A stretch of DNA of 45,536 bases from Segetibacter sp. (lineage in GTDB: Bacteria > Bacteroidota > Bacteroidia > Chitinophagales > Chitinophagaceae). Under the pieces are notes generated by a model that was not told the origin of the DNA, did not search any database, and saw only the letters and a list, made by a program, of their open reading frames with translations. Of this stretch, positions 14,445 through 45,354 are shown piece by piece; the first letter of the stretch is position 1; the number at the start of each line of letters is the position of its first letter. The translations under genes and the position numbers were made by a program. The stretch lies in assembly GCA_028288485.1 (NCBI GenBank), contig JAQBNO010000086.1:1-45536 (forward strand), given 5' to 3'.

Positions 14445-14460
14445 TTAATAAACAAGCCAT

Positions 14461-14904
14461 ATGGAAAAGCTTACATTTTCAACCACGATCAATGCACCCA
14501 AAGAAAAAGTATGGGAAGTGCTCTGGAACGATTCTACTTACAGGAAATGGACCAGTGTTTTTAGTGAAGGCTCCTGTGTCGAAACCGATTGGAAAGAAGG
14601 CAGCAAAATCCTGTTCCTTGACGGAAAAGGGCAGGGAATGGTCAGCATAATTGAAACAAGCAGACCCAACGAATTTATGTCGTTTAAACACCTGGGAGAA
14701 GTAAAAGATGGCGTTGAAGACACCGAAAGCGAAGCGGTAAAAAAATGGGCCGGCGCAATGGAAAACTACATCCTTAACGAAGTTAACGGTGCTACAGAAG
14801 TATCAGTCGAGGTGGATATTTCAGACGACTTCAAAGAATACTTTCTAAAAACCTTTCCCAAAGCAATCGAACAAGTGAAGGTATTATCAGAAAATCAACA
14901 GTAA
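14461..14904 (+). CDS. SRPBCC / AHSA1-like protein, 147 aa
   Basis: This soluble START-like domain covers nearly the whole protein. T-I-N-A-P-K-E-K-V-W-E-V-L-W opens the domain (residues 9-22), W-K-E-G-S-K-I-L-F is the conserved core (about 43-51), and a long C-terminal helix ends it. It belongs to the 'activator of Hsp90 ATPase 1 homologue' group, which in bacteria is of uncertain function. It begins 16 bp after the DUF1801 pseudogene and 33 bp before a VOC gene. A decayed paralogue lies at 15405. Confidence 0.88.
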   Translation: MEKLTFSTTINAPKEKVWEVLWNDSTYRKWTSVFSEGSCVETDWKEGSKILFLDGKGQGMVSIIETSRPNEFMSFKHLGEVKDGVEDTESEAVKKWAGAMENYILNEVNGATEVSVEVDISDDFKEYFLKTFPKAIEQVKVLSENQQ

Positions 14905-25836: not shown

Positions 25837-26286
25837 ATGACATTTAAAGAAAAAATATATAGCGGTTGCGTTCAATTGATAAGGAACAAAATCGGCTTAC
25901 TTCAAAATGCCTTGGCTGATTTAAAGCAAAGTGCTTCAAACGAAACGAAAAGTACTGCCGGCGATAAGCACGAAACTGCGTTAGCTATGTTGCAAATTGA
26001 GCAGGAAAACATTAATAAGCAATTAACGGATGCACTGGCGCAAAAACTGGTTCTTGTAAAAATCGACCCTGCAGTTCGCCCCGTAAAAATTGTAAATGGC
26101 AGCCTCGTTAAAACCAACAAAGGATATTTCTTTCTGAGTGTTGCATTAGGCAAAATAGTGGCTGACGAGGTAACAGTAATTGCACTTTCACCTCAATCGC
26201 CTCTGGGAATAAAACTAATGGGATTAAAAGAAAATGATTCTGTGATTATGAATGGAACAAGCTACATTATTGAAAGCATCGAATGA
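25837..26286 (+). CDS. GreA/GreB-like protein, 149 aa
   Basis: A predicted N-terminal coiled coil (residues 1-75: L-I-R-N-K-I-G-L-L-Q-N-A-L-A-D-L and M-L-Q-I-E-Q-E-N-I-N-K-Q-L) is followed by a small FKBP-like C-terminal domain ending S-P-L-G-I-K-L-M-G-L-K-E-N-D-S-V. This is the layout of transcript-cleavage factors GreA/GreB, which act in the secondary channel of RNA polymerase. The coiled coil lacks an obvious acidic D-x-x-E tip and has an S/T-rich break instead. It therefore may not stimulate cleavage. Close relatives in Bacteroidota are often mislabelled as 3-oxoacyl-ACP synthase. It is a single gene. Confidence 0.72.
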   Translation: MTFKEKIYSGCVQLIRNKIGLLQNALADLKQSASNETKSTAGDKHETALAMLQIEQENINKQLTDALAQKLVLVKIDPAVRPVKIVNGSLVKTNKGYFFLSVALGKIVADEVTVIALSPQSPLGIKLMGLKENDSVIMNGTSYIIESIE

Positions 26287-26527: not shown

Positions 26528-26686
26528 AAAAAAAATGGCCCCTCTGTGGAAACAGAGCGGCCTCTAACGATTGCTTGCCATATGAAAATCTTCGAATAAT
26601 TGTTTTTGTGCTGGGTATTACAGCTTAGTATGTTACTTCTTCTTAAACCTTAGCAGTTTTAGTGCCAACTGTTGTTATTTACTTTT
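26528..26686 (-). ncRNA. Putative small RNA, paralogue A
   Basis: The minus-strand unit starts just after a TAnnTTTG element, runs about 160 nt and ends in an intrinsic terminator. The terminator stem GGCC-G-CTCTGT / ACAGAG-G-GGCC has a TTCC loop and is followed by eight T. A 36-nt block immediately before and into the stem (plus-strand 26557-26592) is identical to that of paralogue B at 27244. Upstream the copies diverge except for CATAC-AAGCTGTA. No ORF is conserved apart from a five-codon ATG...TAG (M-A-S-N-R). The likely reading is a family of small structured RNAs; the function is unknown. Confidence 0.6.
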
Positions 26687-26692
26687 CTAATA

Positions 26693-26700
26693 CAAATATA
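26693..26700 (-). promoter_or_regulatory. -7 promoter element of small RNA A
   Basis: The minus strand reads TATATTTG, a perfect TAnnTTTG. No clear -33 TTG is found at 17-23 bp. Confidence 0.5.
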
Positions 26701-27243
26701 GTATAGATTTTTTTGCCATAAATTTAAATACCTGCCGTTTTTATTACAACTAAAGCTGAAATCCAAGCTACAACTAACTGATTTTGAACAGATTACGACG
26801 TAAAAACCATTTATGTCCAAAGATAAATTCAGGAAAATAATCTTTTTATAAAAATTAATAGAAAATTAAAAAGCTAGTTATTTGTCATTATTTTAAGTAA
26901 AATAGTACAAAAAGAATAAAATTGTGTAAATTAAAATAATTTTAATGCAATAAAACCTAAACAAAATAAAAAACCAACCGGTATTGCAATAAATAAAGCC
27001 CCCGACGTTTCGATCTTATTTGACAGTTAAAAAGATTGTCACGCAAGGATGGTACCAGAAAACTGGGAACCGGGTATCCAAAAAAAGAATTTTATCAGGT
27101 GAATGACAAGCAGACGTTTTCAGGGAATCCTAAAACTTGTCAGACTTAGACGATGGTTAAGAAGCGGGGATAATTGTGGGAATTTGAGAACCGATAAGAT
27201 GAAGCAAAAAAGGAAAAGTTAAATACGCAAAAGTTAAATACAC
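26701..27243. other. AT-rich spacer between the two small RNA genes
   Basis: There is no ORF of note on either strand. The sequence is strongly AT-rich around 26820-26990. At the right end a 15-bp unit (AAAAGTTAAATACGC) is repeated in tandem with one mismatch (27214-27228, 27229-27243). The spacing between the two RNA terminators is about 715 bp. Nothing shows whether this was once part of a larger duplicated segment. Confidence 0.45.
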
Positions 27244-27391
27244 AAAAAAATGGCCTCTCCGTGGAAACGGAGCGGCCTCTAACGATTGCTTGCCATATGA
27301 AAATCTTGAGTACTTATATTTGCGCTAACTACAGCTTTGTATGCAGGAAAAACAATTGTAAGAATATCTTCTTTGTATGTTTCTCATTCTT
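27244..27391 (-). ncRNA. Putative small RNA, paralogue B
   Basis: This has the same architecture as paralogue A: a TACATTTG promoter element, about 148 nt, then a terminator GGCC-G-CTCCGT / ACGGAG-A-GGCC with a TTCC loop and a T-tract. Compared with A, one stem pair changes from T-A to C-G on both sides, a compensatory change that supports selection on RNA structure. The identical 36-nt block is at plus-strand 27272-27307. The 5' region contains a 20-codon ORF not present in A, which I regard as incidental. It is transcribed away from the helical-repeat gene at 27517. Confidence 0.6.
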
Positions 27392-27397
27392 GCTACA

Positions 27398-27405
27398 CAA
27401 ATGTA
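27398..27405 (-). promoter_or_regulatory. -7 promoter element of small RNA B
   Basis: The minus strand reads TACATTTG, a perfect TAnnTTTG. A TTG lies upstream but at 25 bp, somewhat too far for a standard -33 element. Confidence 0.5.
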
Positions 27406-27516: not shown

Positions 27517-29070
27517 ATGATGCCCAACCGTATTTCAGATACTTTATTTCAACTTATACACTCTCTTGAAAAGGCTGAAAAAAGAAATTTCAAACTGTAT
27601 ATTAAAAGAAGTTCGGCAAAAGAGGACCTTAAAATTATTCAATTATTTGACGCAATAGATAAATTACCTGAATATGATGAGAAAGTTCTTCTAAAAAAAC
27701 TACCTTCTATAGAAAAACCTCAATTATCGAATTTAAAAACACATTTATACAAACAGGTTTTAGCAAGCCTGCGGTTATTAAAGACAACGGAAAACATCGA
27801 TCTTCAATTACACGAGCAACTGGACTATGCACGGATCTTATATAATAAGGGCTTGTATTTACAAAGCCTTAAGATTTTAGATAAGCTGAAAGAGTTAGCC
27901 CGCTCGTATAACCAGGACAGTTTTTTAATACAGGTGATTTCGCTGGAAAAGAAAATTGAAACTTTGCATATCACGCGAAGTATGCAGGACAGGGCCGACC
28001 AGCTAACGGCAGAAGCGAATGAAATAAATGAAAGAAGAAGAATAATTACGCAGCTGTCAAACCTTGCGCTGCAATTATATAGCTGGTATATTAAAAACGG
28101 GCATGCGCGTAACGAAGAAGATGAAAAAGATATAAAAAAATTTTTTACAGAAAATCTTCCGCCAGAAGCATGCAAGCTGAAAGGCTTTTATGAAAGGCTT
28201 TACCTATGCCAAAGCTATTGCTGGTATGCCTTTATTCGCCAGGATTTTTTGATGTACTATCGTTACACTCAAAAGTGGGTCAACCTGTTTCATGAAGAAA
28301 ATATAATGATAGGTGTGGAAACGGGCCATTATATAAAAGGCATGCATAACCTTTTAAATGCCCACTTTGATCTGCGAAATTTCAAGCAGTTTGAAATAGC
28401 GTTAAAACAATTTGAGGATTTTGGTTCTTCAGACGCTGCCAACCTGCACGATAACTTTCGAATTCAAACCTTCGTCTATATCTATAGCGCAAAAATTAAC
28501 CAGCATTTTATGTTGGGAACATTCGCTGAGGGCCTTTTATTGGTGCCACATATTGAAGAAAAGCTTCATCAATACGCACTATTTCTCGATACCCACCGAA
28601 TCCTGGTTATCAATTATAAAATTGCCACCTTATACTTTGGTAACGGTGATTATGGAACATCTATCGATTACCTGCAAAGGATAATAAACAACAATGTTGA
28701 CCTCCGAAACGATCTGCAGTGTTATGCCCGCCTGTTGCATCTTATGGCTCACTTCGAGCTGGGCAATTTTGAAATTATAGAATACCTCATAAAGTCGGTT
28801 TACCGGTTTATGGCTAAAATGCAAAACCTCACCGTTATCGAGGAAGAAATGTTCAAATTTCTACGCAGATCGTTTCATGTGTCAAGGAAAAAATTGAAAC
28901 CCGAATTTGAAAAATTTCTGTCCAAAATAAAGCAGTATGAAAAAAGCCGTTTCGAAACCCGTTCTTTTGCTTACCTCGATATTATTTCGTGGGTAGAAAG
29001 TAAGGTGTACGATAAAACAATGAGCGAAATAATAAAAGCAAAATATGCACAAAGTCGCCGCAGGCTATGA
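27517..29070 (+). CDS. Large helical-repeat (TPR-like) protein, 517 aa
   Basis: This all-helical cytosolic protein has no signal peptide or membrane segment. Degenerate TPR-like units can be seen, for example A-R-I-L-Y-N-K-G-L-Y-L-Q-S-L-K-I-L-D-K-L near residue 110 and I-A-T-L-Y-F-G-N-G-D-Y-G-T-S-I-D-Y-L near 370. Aromatic residues are common. The N-terminal ~90 residues are a conserved charged region (E-K-A-E-K-R-N-F-K-L-Y). Full-length relatives are common in Bacteroidota, especially Chitinophagaceae, and have no assigned role; a scaffold or regulatory function is plausible. The start is one of two adjacent ATG codons. The small RNAs lie upstream on the opposite strand. Confidence 0.82.
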   Translation: MMPNRISDTLFQLIHSLEKAEKRNFKLYIKRSSAKEDLKIIQLFDAIDKLPEYDEKVLLKKLPSIEKPQLSNLKTHLYKQVLASLRLLKTTENIDLQLHEQLDYARILYNKGLYLQSLKILDKLKELARSYNQDSFLIQVISLEKKIETLHITRSMQDRADQLTAEANEINERRRIITQLSNLALQLYSWYIKNGHARNEEDEKDIKKFFTENLPPEACKLKGFYERLYLCQSYCWYAFIRQDFLMYYRYTQKWVNLFHEENIMIGVETGHYIKGMHNLLNAHFDLRNFKQFEIALKQFEDFGSSDAANLHDNFRIQTFVYIYSAKINQHFMLGTFAEGLLLVPHIEEKLHQYALFLDTHRILVINYKIATLYFGNGDYGTSIDYLQRIINNNVDLRNDLQCYARLLHLMAHFELGNFEIIEYLIKSVYRFMAKMQNLTVIEEEMFKFLRRSFHVSRKKLKPEFEKFLSKIKQYEKSRFETRSFAYLDIISWVESKVYDKTMSEIIKAKYAQSRRRL

Positions 29071-41033: not shown

Positions 41034-42527
41034 CTACAGTTCTGTCCACGCCTTCACTGCTTTTAAGGCTTTATTCCATCCGTTTATACCTTCCTGAATA
41101 GTGTCGCGGTTAGCTGACGGAGTAAACTGAACATCACGCTGCCACAGTTCCTGTATTTCATTTGCATCTTTCCAGTAGCCAGTTGCTAACCCGGCCAGGT
41201 ATGCTGCGCCCATAGCAGTGGTTTCTGTGATTTTGGGACGAACAACTTTTGTATTGAGAACGTTTGCCTGGAATTGCATTAAAAGGTTGTTTGCTGTTGC
41301 TCCACCGTCAACCCTCAGCTCTTTAATAGAAATACCAGAGTCGGCTTCCATCGCTTTAAGAACATCCATTGTTTGATAAGCAATAGCCTGAACTGCAGCC
41401 CGGGCTATATGTGCGGCTGTACTTCCGCGGGTTAGTCCTAAGATCATACCTCTTGCGTAAGGATTCCAATGGGGGGCGCCAAGGCCCGCAAATGCAGGAA
41501 CAAAATAAACGCCGTCAGGACTGTCAACTTTCATAGCCAGTTCTTCAATTTCTGCAGATGTTTTTATGATACCTAAGCTATCACGTAACCATTGAACAAC
41601 TGCCCCGGCTATAAATATGCTTCCTTCAAGTGCATATTGTGTTTCACCATTTACTTTCCACGCAACTGTTGTAAGAAGATTATTTTGAGAAACAATAGGC
41701 TTATTGCCAATATTCATGAGCATAAAACAACCAGTACCGTAGGTATTTTTAACCATACCGGGCTGTGTACACATTTGACCAAAGAGTGCTGCCTGCTGGT
41801 CTCCGGCTATTCCTGCAATAGGTATTTTAGAGGCGAATATGGTTGTTTTGGTTTCTCCGTATACTTCGCTTGATTGTTTAACGACCGGCAACATGCTCGT
41901 GGGAATAGTAAAAAGCTGCAGCAGTTCATCGTCCCAACTCAGGCTGTGAATGTTAAACAACATTGTTCTTGATGCATTTGTAACATCGGTAACGTGCAAA
42001 TCGCCTCTTGTAAAATTCCAGATCAGCCAGGTATCGATTGTTCCCATTATCAAATCACCTTCTTCGGCCTTTTTACGGGCACCTTCCACATTATCGAGGA
42101 TCCATTTCACTTTCGTTGCCGAAAAATAAGAATCGATAATAAGACCGGTTTTAGAACGGATCCGGTCATTCTTCCCCTGCGCTATCAACTCATCGCAATA
42201 CGCTGCTGTTCTCCTGTCTTGCCATACAATTGCATTATACACCGGAACCCCAGTTTTCCTATCCCACACTACAACCGTTTCCCGCTGATTGGTAATACCG
42301 ATAGCGGTGATATTTGTTCCGTTAATACGAGCTTTTACAGTCGCCTCGGCAGCAACGCCTGCCTGGGTTGACCAGATTTCTACCGGATCGTGTTCGACCC
42401 AGCCCGGTTGAGGAAAAATTTGGGTGAATTCTTTCTGAGCGACGGAGATTATCTGACCTTTTTTGTCAAAAATAATAGCCCGGGAACTCGTTGTTCCCTG
42501 GTCAAGCGCAAGAATGTACTGTTGCAT
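41034..42527 (-). CDS. glpK: Glycerol kinase, 497 aa
   Basis: This FGGY-family kinase phosphorylates glycerol to glycerol 3-phosphate with [16 protein letters not shown] lies at residues 9-21, G-W-V-E-H-D-P near 47, [12 protein letters not shown] near 240 and the adenosine motif D-G-G-A-T-A-N near 400. The length of 497 aa is standard. It traps glycerol that enters through GlpF and feeds GlpD, whose gene is 83 bp upstream in the same direction. Start ATG 42527 is immediately before the first conserved strand. Confidence 0.97.
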
Positions 42528-42610
42528 AGCAATCGTTTAGCAGTGTAGTTTGGTTAATAAGACGGTCTATTCTTCCACACGTATAAATCTTCCGGCTACA
42601 AGTTACCCGG

Positions 42611-44994: not shown

Positions 44995-45354
44995 ATGAAG
45001 ATTTTTGTAGCCGGACTTCCTTATGACCTCGATGATGCAGAATTGATAGAAATATTTGAAAAATTTGGAACTATAACGTCCGCAAAAGTGGCAATAGACA
45101 AAGAAACCGGAAAAAGCAAAGGATTTGCTTTCGTTGAGATGCCTAATAAAGAAGAAGCACTAGAGGCTATAGACGGGCTAAATGATATCTCGCTGGGTAA
45201 AAAGCCATTAGTGGTTAAAGAGGCTGAAGAAAGAAGTTCGAAGCCTGGCGGATCAAGTTCTGGCAACCGTAGTAGTGGCGGTGGTTATAATAAAAGCGGT
45301 GGTGGTTACAACAAATTCGGCTATGATAACGACACTAATTTCAACAAGCAATAA
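44995..45354 (+). CDS. RRM-domain RNA-binding protein with Gly/Ser-rich tail, 119 aa
   Basis: A single RNA-recognition motif covers residues 1-78: RNP2 is I-F-V-A-G-L (3-8) and RNP1 is K-G-F-A-F-V-E-M (42-49), with the exposed aromatics needed to stack on RNA. A flexible G/S/N/Y-rich tail follows, with G-G-G-Y-N-K repeats (about 85-119), like eukaryotic and cyanobacterial glycine-rich RNA-binding proteins. Such bacterial proteins are often cold-induced and bind mRNA. A TACTTTTA element, close to the -7 consensus, lies about 15 bp upstream. It is monocistronic. Confidence 0.93.
   Translation: MKIFVAGLPYDLDDAELIEIFEKFGTITSAKVAIDKETGKSKGFAFVEMPNKEEALEAIDGLNDISLGKKPLVVKEAEERSSKPGGSSSGNRSSGGGYNKSGGGYNKFGYDNDTNFNKQ

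Follow-up and report, generated by a model that had tools for sequence, protein, structure and literature searches.

Putative FopS-like small RNAs of Chitinophagaceae with a conserved pre-terminator tag complementary to SusC translation starts

We consider it likely, judging from sequence, that two short minus-strand units in a Segetibacter genome are stand-alone members of a lineage-specific, FopS-like family of Chitinophagaceae small RNAs (sRNAs) that represses SusC translation. The RNA element is real, family-wide and multicopy, and has no Rfam match. As read from its many copies, an ultraconserved and apparently single-stranded tag (U-run, CAUAUGGCAAGCAAUCGUUAG) lies directly before an intrinsic terminator. 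The tag occurs in stand-alone genes and in 3' UTRs and is predicted to be complementary to the SusC translation starts of its own genome. We found no earlier description of the family in the literature covered, which took in no preprints and few subscription journals.

The window, that is the whole 45,536 nt stretch of Segetibacter sp. DNA analysed (contig JAQBNO010000086.1), holds the two copies, units A and B, at a spacing of 715 bp between the plus-strand ORFs 25837-26286 and 27517-29070. No convincing gene overlaps them. The 517-aa gene at 27517..29070 (plus strand), which has no Pfam match and is divergent to the units, served as a marker of the locus. Unit A would give an sRNA of ~145-150 nt (about 27244..27392, minus strand) and unit B one of ~155-160 nt (about 26529..26687, minus strand), both with putative 5' ends. 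Upstream of unit A lies the -7-type element TACATTTG (27398..27405), which lines up with a TAnnTTTG-like element in relatives at that locus; the corresponding element of unit B, read from its sequence, is TATATTTG (26693..26700). Both units carry the core TTTTCATATGGCAAGCAATCGTTAG, the proposed seed (27279..27303 in A, 26564..26588 in B), followed by a terminator hairpin, AGGCCGCTCCGTTTCCACGGAGAGGCC in A (27252..27278, T-tract extending to 27244) and AGGCCGCTCTGTTTCCACAGAGGGGCC in B (26537..26563, T-tract extending to 26529). All of these elements lie on the minus strand, as does a CATAC-AAGCTGTA motif at 27330-27343 (A) and 26619-26632 (B).

Re-reading of the sequence confirmed this arrangement of twin minus-strand units with TAnnTTTG element, CATAC motif and terminator, which a first-pass annotation had described. 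The identical block next to the terminator, given there as 36 nt, is present and is 38 nt long (AAGATTTTCATATGGCAAGCAATCGTTAGAGGCCGCTC, minus strand, 27270-27307 in A and 26555-26592 in B). The sequence bears out the reported T-A to C-G change on both sides of the terminator stem (CTCCG/CGGAG in unit A, CTCTG/CAGAG in unit B) and shows an additional A-to-G difference on the 3' side of the terminator, facing an internal unpaired position. Folding of the whole units was only mildly unusual, with z -1.39 for unit B (19 of 200 shuffles equally stable) and z -2.34 for unit A (1 of 200). The window gave no match at gathering score to any family of Rfam 15, which may lack a FopS model. Sub-threshold matches from a permissive Rfam search belonged to unrelated families and were discarded.

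The two units had been taken for a pair of paralogues, but they belong to a larger set. A covariance model built from 61 copies found 11 places in the genome at E<=0.01, of which nine score >=44 bits, and a sequence search with unit B gave nine matches. The 23-nt core TTCATATGGCAAGCAATCGTTAG occurs there in seven exact copies and one copy with three mismatches, compared with none for the reversed control pattern, so its recurrence is not due to chance. With up to three mismatches permitted, as in all core searches from the own genome to the phylum, 99 of the 147 family genomes sampled, counting the own genome, contained the core (control: 0 in every listed row). In a sample of the order, 15 of 149 genomes matched; each belongs to the 18 from the same family, and the 131 outside the family had none (one control match). 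A sample of the phylum gave 5 of 247, all among eight same-family genomes, and none in the other 239 (two control matches). At E<=0.01, the covariance model detected members in 111 of these 147 genomes, though in some only weakly. In a sample of the class, it found nothing above 29 bits outside the family; outside-family hits in 13 of 198 genomes, all below 29 bits, were taken as chance or terminator-only matches. An exact-pattern scan of named genomes returned at least 119 stretches. The genera among the matches listed include Niabella and Hydrotalea (both Chitinophagaceae); many other listed titles belong to metagenome-assembled genomes whose label is Chitinophagaceae, Chitinophagales or Bacteroidetes, and one carries the label Flavobacterium. 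Because the scan pattern prescribed those letters, the 21-nt core is in part conserved by construction in these exact-pattern loci.

The common layout is a T-run, CATATGGCAAGCAATCGTTAG, a variable hairpin with a UUCN-type loop and a U-tract. We gathered 221 distinct copies from 208 loci. T occupies each of the four positions preceding the core, which the scan patterns left free, in 90-98% of copies. Within the next 42 nt, 197 of the 219 copies with enough sequence have a hairpin of -6 kcal/mol or lower. Twenty of the 22 hairpin-less copies have a hairpin copy 25-250 nt downstream, which identifies them as extra copies on its 5' side. The loop reads TTTCTA or TTTCCA in 149 of 196 copies, compared with 7 of the 154 other tetraloop terminators found in these loci. 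The alignment for covariation was restricted to copies whose loop is at position 12 and used 61 of the 62 distinct ones (L196 was omitted). In this alignment, 94.4% of cells pair and all 10 hairpin pairs have changed on both sides, with 123 double-change cells compared with 33 in shuffles; none of 500 shuffles reached any of the measures. The stem has thus changed in sequence but not in pairing, and loop and tag have been retained.

A TAnnTTTG element was found 40-175 nt upstream of 61 of 189 copies, compared with a mean of 13.2 and a maximum of 24 in 200 dinucleotide shuffles. Hexamers antisense to the core were rarer upstream than in shuffles (15 vs ~36 expected; 140 copies outside the lipoprotein class described below), suggesting that outside that class the tag is kept unpaired. 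The exception is GCTTGC, the complement of GCAAGC in the core, which occurs ~30 nt before the core in 22 of the 37 lipoprotein 3' UTRs that exceed 30 nt (shuffles: mean 0.5, maximum 2) and possibly acts as a built-in mask or sponge site. The covarying terminator pairs, the over-represented promoter-like element, a block kept family-wide between otherwise unrelated flanks, the lack of an Rfam match and specific complementarity to SusC starts (below) all speak, at the level of sequence, for the earlier proposal of a duplicated functional RNA with a shared target-binding block.

Family copies are stand-alone genes, lie in 3' UTRs (of small lipoprotein and porin genes) or are found on viral contigs. 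The first-pass annotation had seen neither the large size of the family nor its many 3'-UTR copies and those on viral contigs. Clustering of the neighbours of 197 hairpin copies defined three sites. At site I, the element follows a small lipoprotein gene, within its 3' UTR (34 ORFs in 32 loci). A divergent gene is present in 41 loci, its representative matching Pfam Sigma70_r2, and the downstream gene in 25 loci is, by eye, presumably prephenate dehydratase. The lipoprotein class (e.g. L005, L034 and L154) consists of tiny genes (MKKLLFVLAIGAFAACGS...), tandem or single, beside the divergent sigma-70-family gene. Site II is that of the window: homologues of 27517-29070 (58-86% identity) are divergent to the element in 24 other loci. 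The site II alignment has a perfect TAnnTTTG in 16 of 27 rows and the loose form TAnnTT[TC][GA] in 24 of 27, and an extra upstream GCAATCG is found in 19 of the 24 other loci and is absent from units A and B. At site III, the element occupies the 3' UTR of a porin gene (Pfam BBP2; six loci). Location of the shared block in a mobile element or at the 3' end of a protein gene had been named beforehand as evidence against a functional RNA. Other copies do lie in such places; units A and B stand alone. The 3'-UTR copies fit 3'-UTR-derived sRNAs, and one FopS member is 3'-end-derived according to PMC11697453.

Thirteen viral-contig stretches carry the element (L201 appears to be the same virus as L198). 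ARAGORN placed a tRNA within ~250 nt of it in six of the 13 (L196, L197, L199, L203, L204 and L208), and in L199 a tRNA-Phe gene lies between two element copies. Proteins of the viral contigs matched PHROGs in eight of ten cases tested, among them an endolysin just upstream of the L202 copy.

The complement of the core reads ...GATTGCTTGCCATATGAAAAA and thus contains a start codon followed by lysine codons. We compared predicted duplexes of the 29-nt motif with the starts of SusC genes in four genomes, two of them motif-bearing (the own genome, G000, where SusC genes were called by TIGR04056, and G055, of another genus). The start was taken as the farthest in-frame ATG, which may be wrong in some cases (L305 looks so), and genes were dropped where the start was not found or lay too near an edge. 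This left 48 of 49 matches over the cut-off in G000, 34 usable genes in G055 (out of 40 taken from 49 listed), 35 in G006 (out of 38 taken from 49 listed) and 28 of 31 in G188. In G000, the mean predicted energy at the 48 SusC starts was -15.19 kcal/mol. Shuffling the letters of the motif gave -10.35 (0/200; z -6.4), dinucleotide shuffling -10.88 (0/120) and reversal -9.26. The starts of 295 other ORFs (mechanical ORFs under 900 aa) gave -11.14 (p 1.8e-8) and SusC interiors -11.67 (p 1.7e-4). The start codon is the centre of the predicted pairing. In G055, the mean was -13.65, compared with -10.67 for letter shuffles (0/200) and -11.46 for dinucleotide shuffles (1/120); a truncated motif paired nearly equally well 200 nt upstream (-9.71 vs -10.36). 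No excess at SusC starts was seen in G006, which belongs to the family and lacks the motif (-10.41 vs -11.01 shuffled; 154/200), or in the outgroup G188, of the same order and another family (-9.54 vs -9.18; 64/200).

Some comparisons bound this signal. In G000, the GGCAAGCAAUCGUUAG part alone did not beat SusC interiors (p 0.31). A long target (18 nt, up to three mismatches) was not enriched genome-wide (24 vs 19 for the control, and eight of the 24 were motif copies). Complementary 8-mers at 967 mechanical ORF starts numbered 29, compared with a shuffled mean of 10.9 (maximum 19 of 60); ORF interiors had 15 and reversed k-mers gave 12, which makes the signal for ORF starts at large a weak one. 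The named loci contain one SusC gene that we found. In the window, AACGATTGCT lies directly before the ATG of the minus-strand gene 41034-42527 (42519-42537), by eye taken to be glycerol kinase. Its complement within the core is AGCAAUCGUU; the duplex is predicted at -19.3 kcal/mol, and the site is a possible non-SusC target. The start of the plus-strand gene 14461-14904 (AAGCCATATGGAAAAG, 14450-14470) gave a predicted duplex of -18.3 kcal/mol.

A seed could be predicted for a genus in which the motif is absent. The SusC starts of G006 (genus g7) are enriched in CGTTAT(G), ACGTTA and AAATTC/AATTCC/ATTCCA, and from them we predicted the seed TTTTCATAACG. The pattern occurred 40 times in G006 and 31 times in its congener G106, compared with 14 and 16 for the reversed control. 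We inspected 70 of the 71 sites, many of which are, by eye, antisense to the starts of ORFs beginning with MK. Five sites (L461 twice, L464, L488 and L523) have CATAACGTGGAAT in common, with a strong hairpin after it; four have a T-run of at least 5 behind the hairpin and two a TAnnTTTG close upstream. The letters of the search came from G006 SusC starts, and the CATAACG part of this seed (seed B) is therefore not independent evidence. The extension (GTGGAATTT, GTGGAATTTATAAA), absent from the search pattern and independent of it, pairs with G006 SusC starts (1/120) and matches the AAATTCC seen beforehand. Like the window's family, seed-B units combine TTTTCATA with a lineage-specific part (CGTGGAAT) and a hairpin and are complementary to the SusC starts of their own genome; unlike it, they have another extension, and in two of the five the seed lies close behind TAnnTTTG. 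Seed B was not found in the viral contigs. In genus g7 (G006, G106), these units thus form a second small-RNA-like family beside that of the window, TTTTCATAACGTGGAAT plus hairpin, with two copies 132 bp apart in G106.

As whole seeds, that of the window's family (seed A) was significant in G000 and G055, and seed B was strongest in G006 (z -9.2). Without UUUUUCAU, the shared CAU module, seed A gave 0/100 in G000, 9/100 in G055 (not significant; 20/120 in another test) and 100/100 in G006, and seed B gave 0/100 in G006 and 11/100 in G000.

We weighed four other explanations. The element might be a 3'-end device, bound by a protein or serving termination, processing or stabilisation, that has no base-pairing targets. 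The ever-adjacent terminator with its conserved UUCN-type loop would suit such a device, and so would the position of copies after unrelated genes and close to viral tRNA genes. It leaves unexplained, however, why SusC-start complementarity tracks the presence of the motif, why GCTTGC recurs in the longer lipoprotein 3' UTRs and why the seed prediction succeeded, and we regard it as unlikely. A CsrB-like RNA with many sites that titrates an RNA-binding protein is very unlikely as an account of its own, while being compatible with the sRNA reading. Many stand-alone genes do carry the extra GCAATCG and the genome encodes two RRM proteins, but in units A and B the 3' copy is the only one, most 3'-UTR copies occur singly, and the conserved stretch (21 nt plus the T-run) is long for a protein site. 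It is still harder to see the SusC resemblance as a shared style of translation initiation (A-rich, AUGAAAAA) without targeting. The UUUUUCAU part alone does give some signal in every genome (FopS R1' z ~-3 in all four), yet the part without it is specific to the genome, seed A to G000 and seed B to G006, and SusC starts differ from other genes' starts of the same genome. A REP/BIME-like mobile repeat or a recent, ordinary duplication would suit the multiple copies, their presence on viral contigs and tandem arrays in some genomes, but is scarcely credible for an identical core in many genera with covarying hairpins, unrelated flanks and conserved syntenic places.

LhrC and Qrr are sets of paralogous sRNAs with a common pairing block, of phyla, targets and sequences other than those here. 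Both (LhrC from Listeria, Qrr from Vibrio) are named as multicopy sRNAs in PMC11697453, which describes the closest known system, FopS, with GibS and RbpB. According to that paper, FopS comprises 14 sRNAs in B. thetaiotaomicron with an unpaired seed and a terminator, canonical promoters, one 3'-end-derived (3'-UTR) member and a phage copy; it pairs at SusC start codons and is antagonised by RbpB. The present family likewise has multicopy paralogues (the nine model matches), an unpaired conserved block followed by a Rho-independent terminator, and SusC translation-start pairing by predicted energy, weaker in G055. The FopS block is at the 5' end, whereas here a variable 5' part with a putative 5' end comes first and the seed directly precedes the terminator. 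Many 3'-UTR members, the conserved UUCN-type loop and extra 5' seed copies also set the family apart. The published R1' consensus GTGTTTTTCATAGTATTAGATTTAAGGTTAACAAA has only TTTTTCATA in common with the seeds here and is unrelated beyond it; the family thus falls outside the R1/R1' seed group, and seed-specific pairing differs between lineages. By all sequence tests, then, the family appears to work like FopS as described there, without being a FopS member by seed.

In the sRNA reading, a stand-alone or processed RNA would bear the tag near the terminator hairpin. UUUUUCAU would pair with the start codon plus the lysine codons after it (AUGAAAAA), and the remainder with the bases just upstream, which would block ribosomes on SusC mRNAs. 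By analogy with FopS in gut Bacteroides, the RNAs probably switch off the uptake of unneeded sugars. Several loci may let different signals feed one seed, through their own promoters and, in many genomes, through the small lipoprotein gene beside a sigma-70-family gene. An RRM protein may bind the RNAs, as RbpB binds FopS. The genome has two RRM_1 matches (mutual identity 40% over 63 aa); one, with a glycine-rich tail, is encoded in the window ~18 kb from the units (44995-45354, plus strand) and is an RbpB-type candidate partner. The direction of regulation, the 3'-UTR processing and the RRM-protein binding are what we infer.

A wider generalization is, in our view, plausible rather than likely: each Bacteroidota lineage may keep a multicopy sRNA family that joins a common anti-start module (UUUUUCAUA) to a lineage-specific extension co-evolving with the bases upstream of dozens of SusC starts. 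The code would then be readable from SusC starts alone, and viruses of these bacteria would carry the tag, perhaps to cut surface-receptor synthesis; their copies raise the idea of receptor control in infected cells. If the sRNA reading of the present family holds, a cheap way of finding such sRNAs would be to read the SusC starts, predict the seed and seek it before a terminator. An sRNA seed and dozens of SusC start sites would be seen to vary in step from lineage to lineage, and the control of glycan uptake by sRNAs would reach from gut Bacteroides to a large environmental family.
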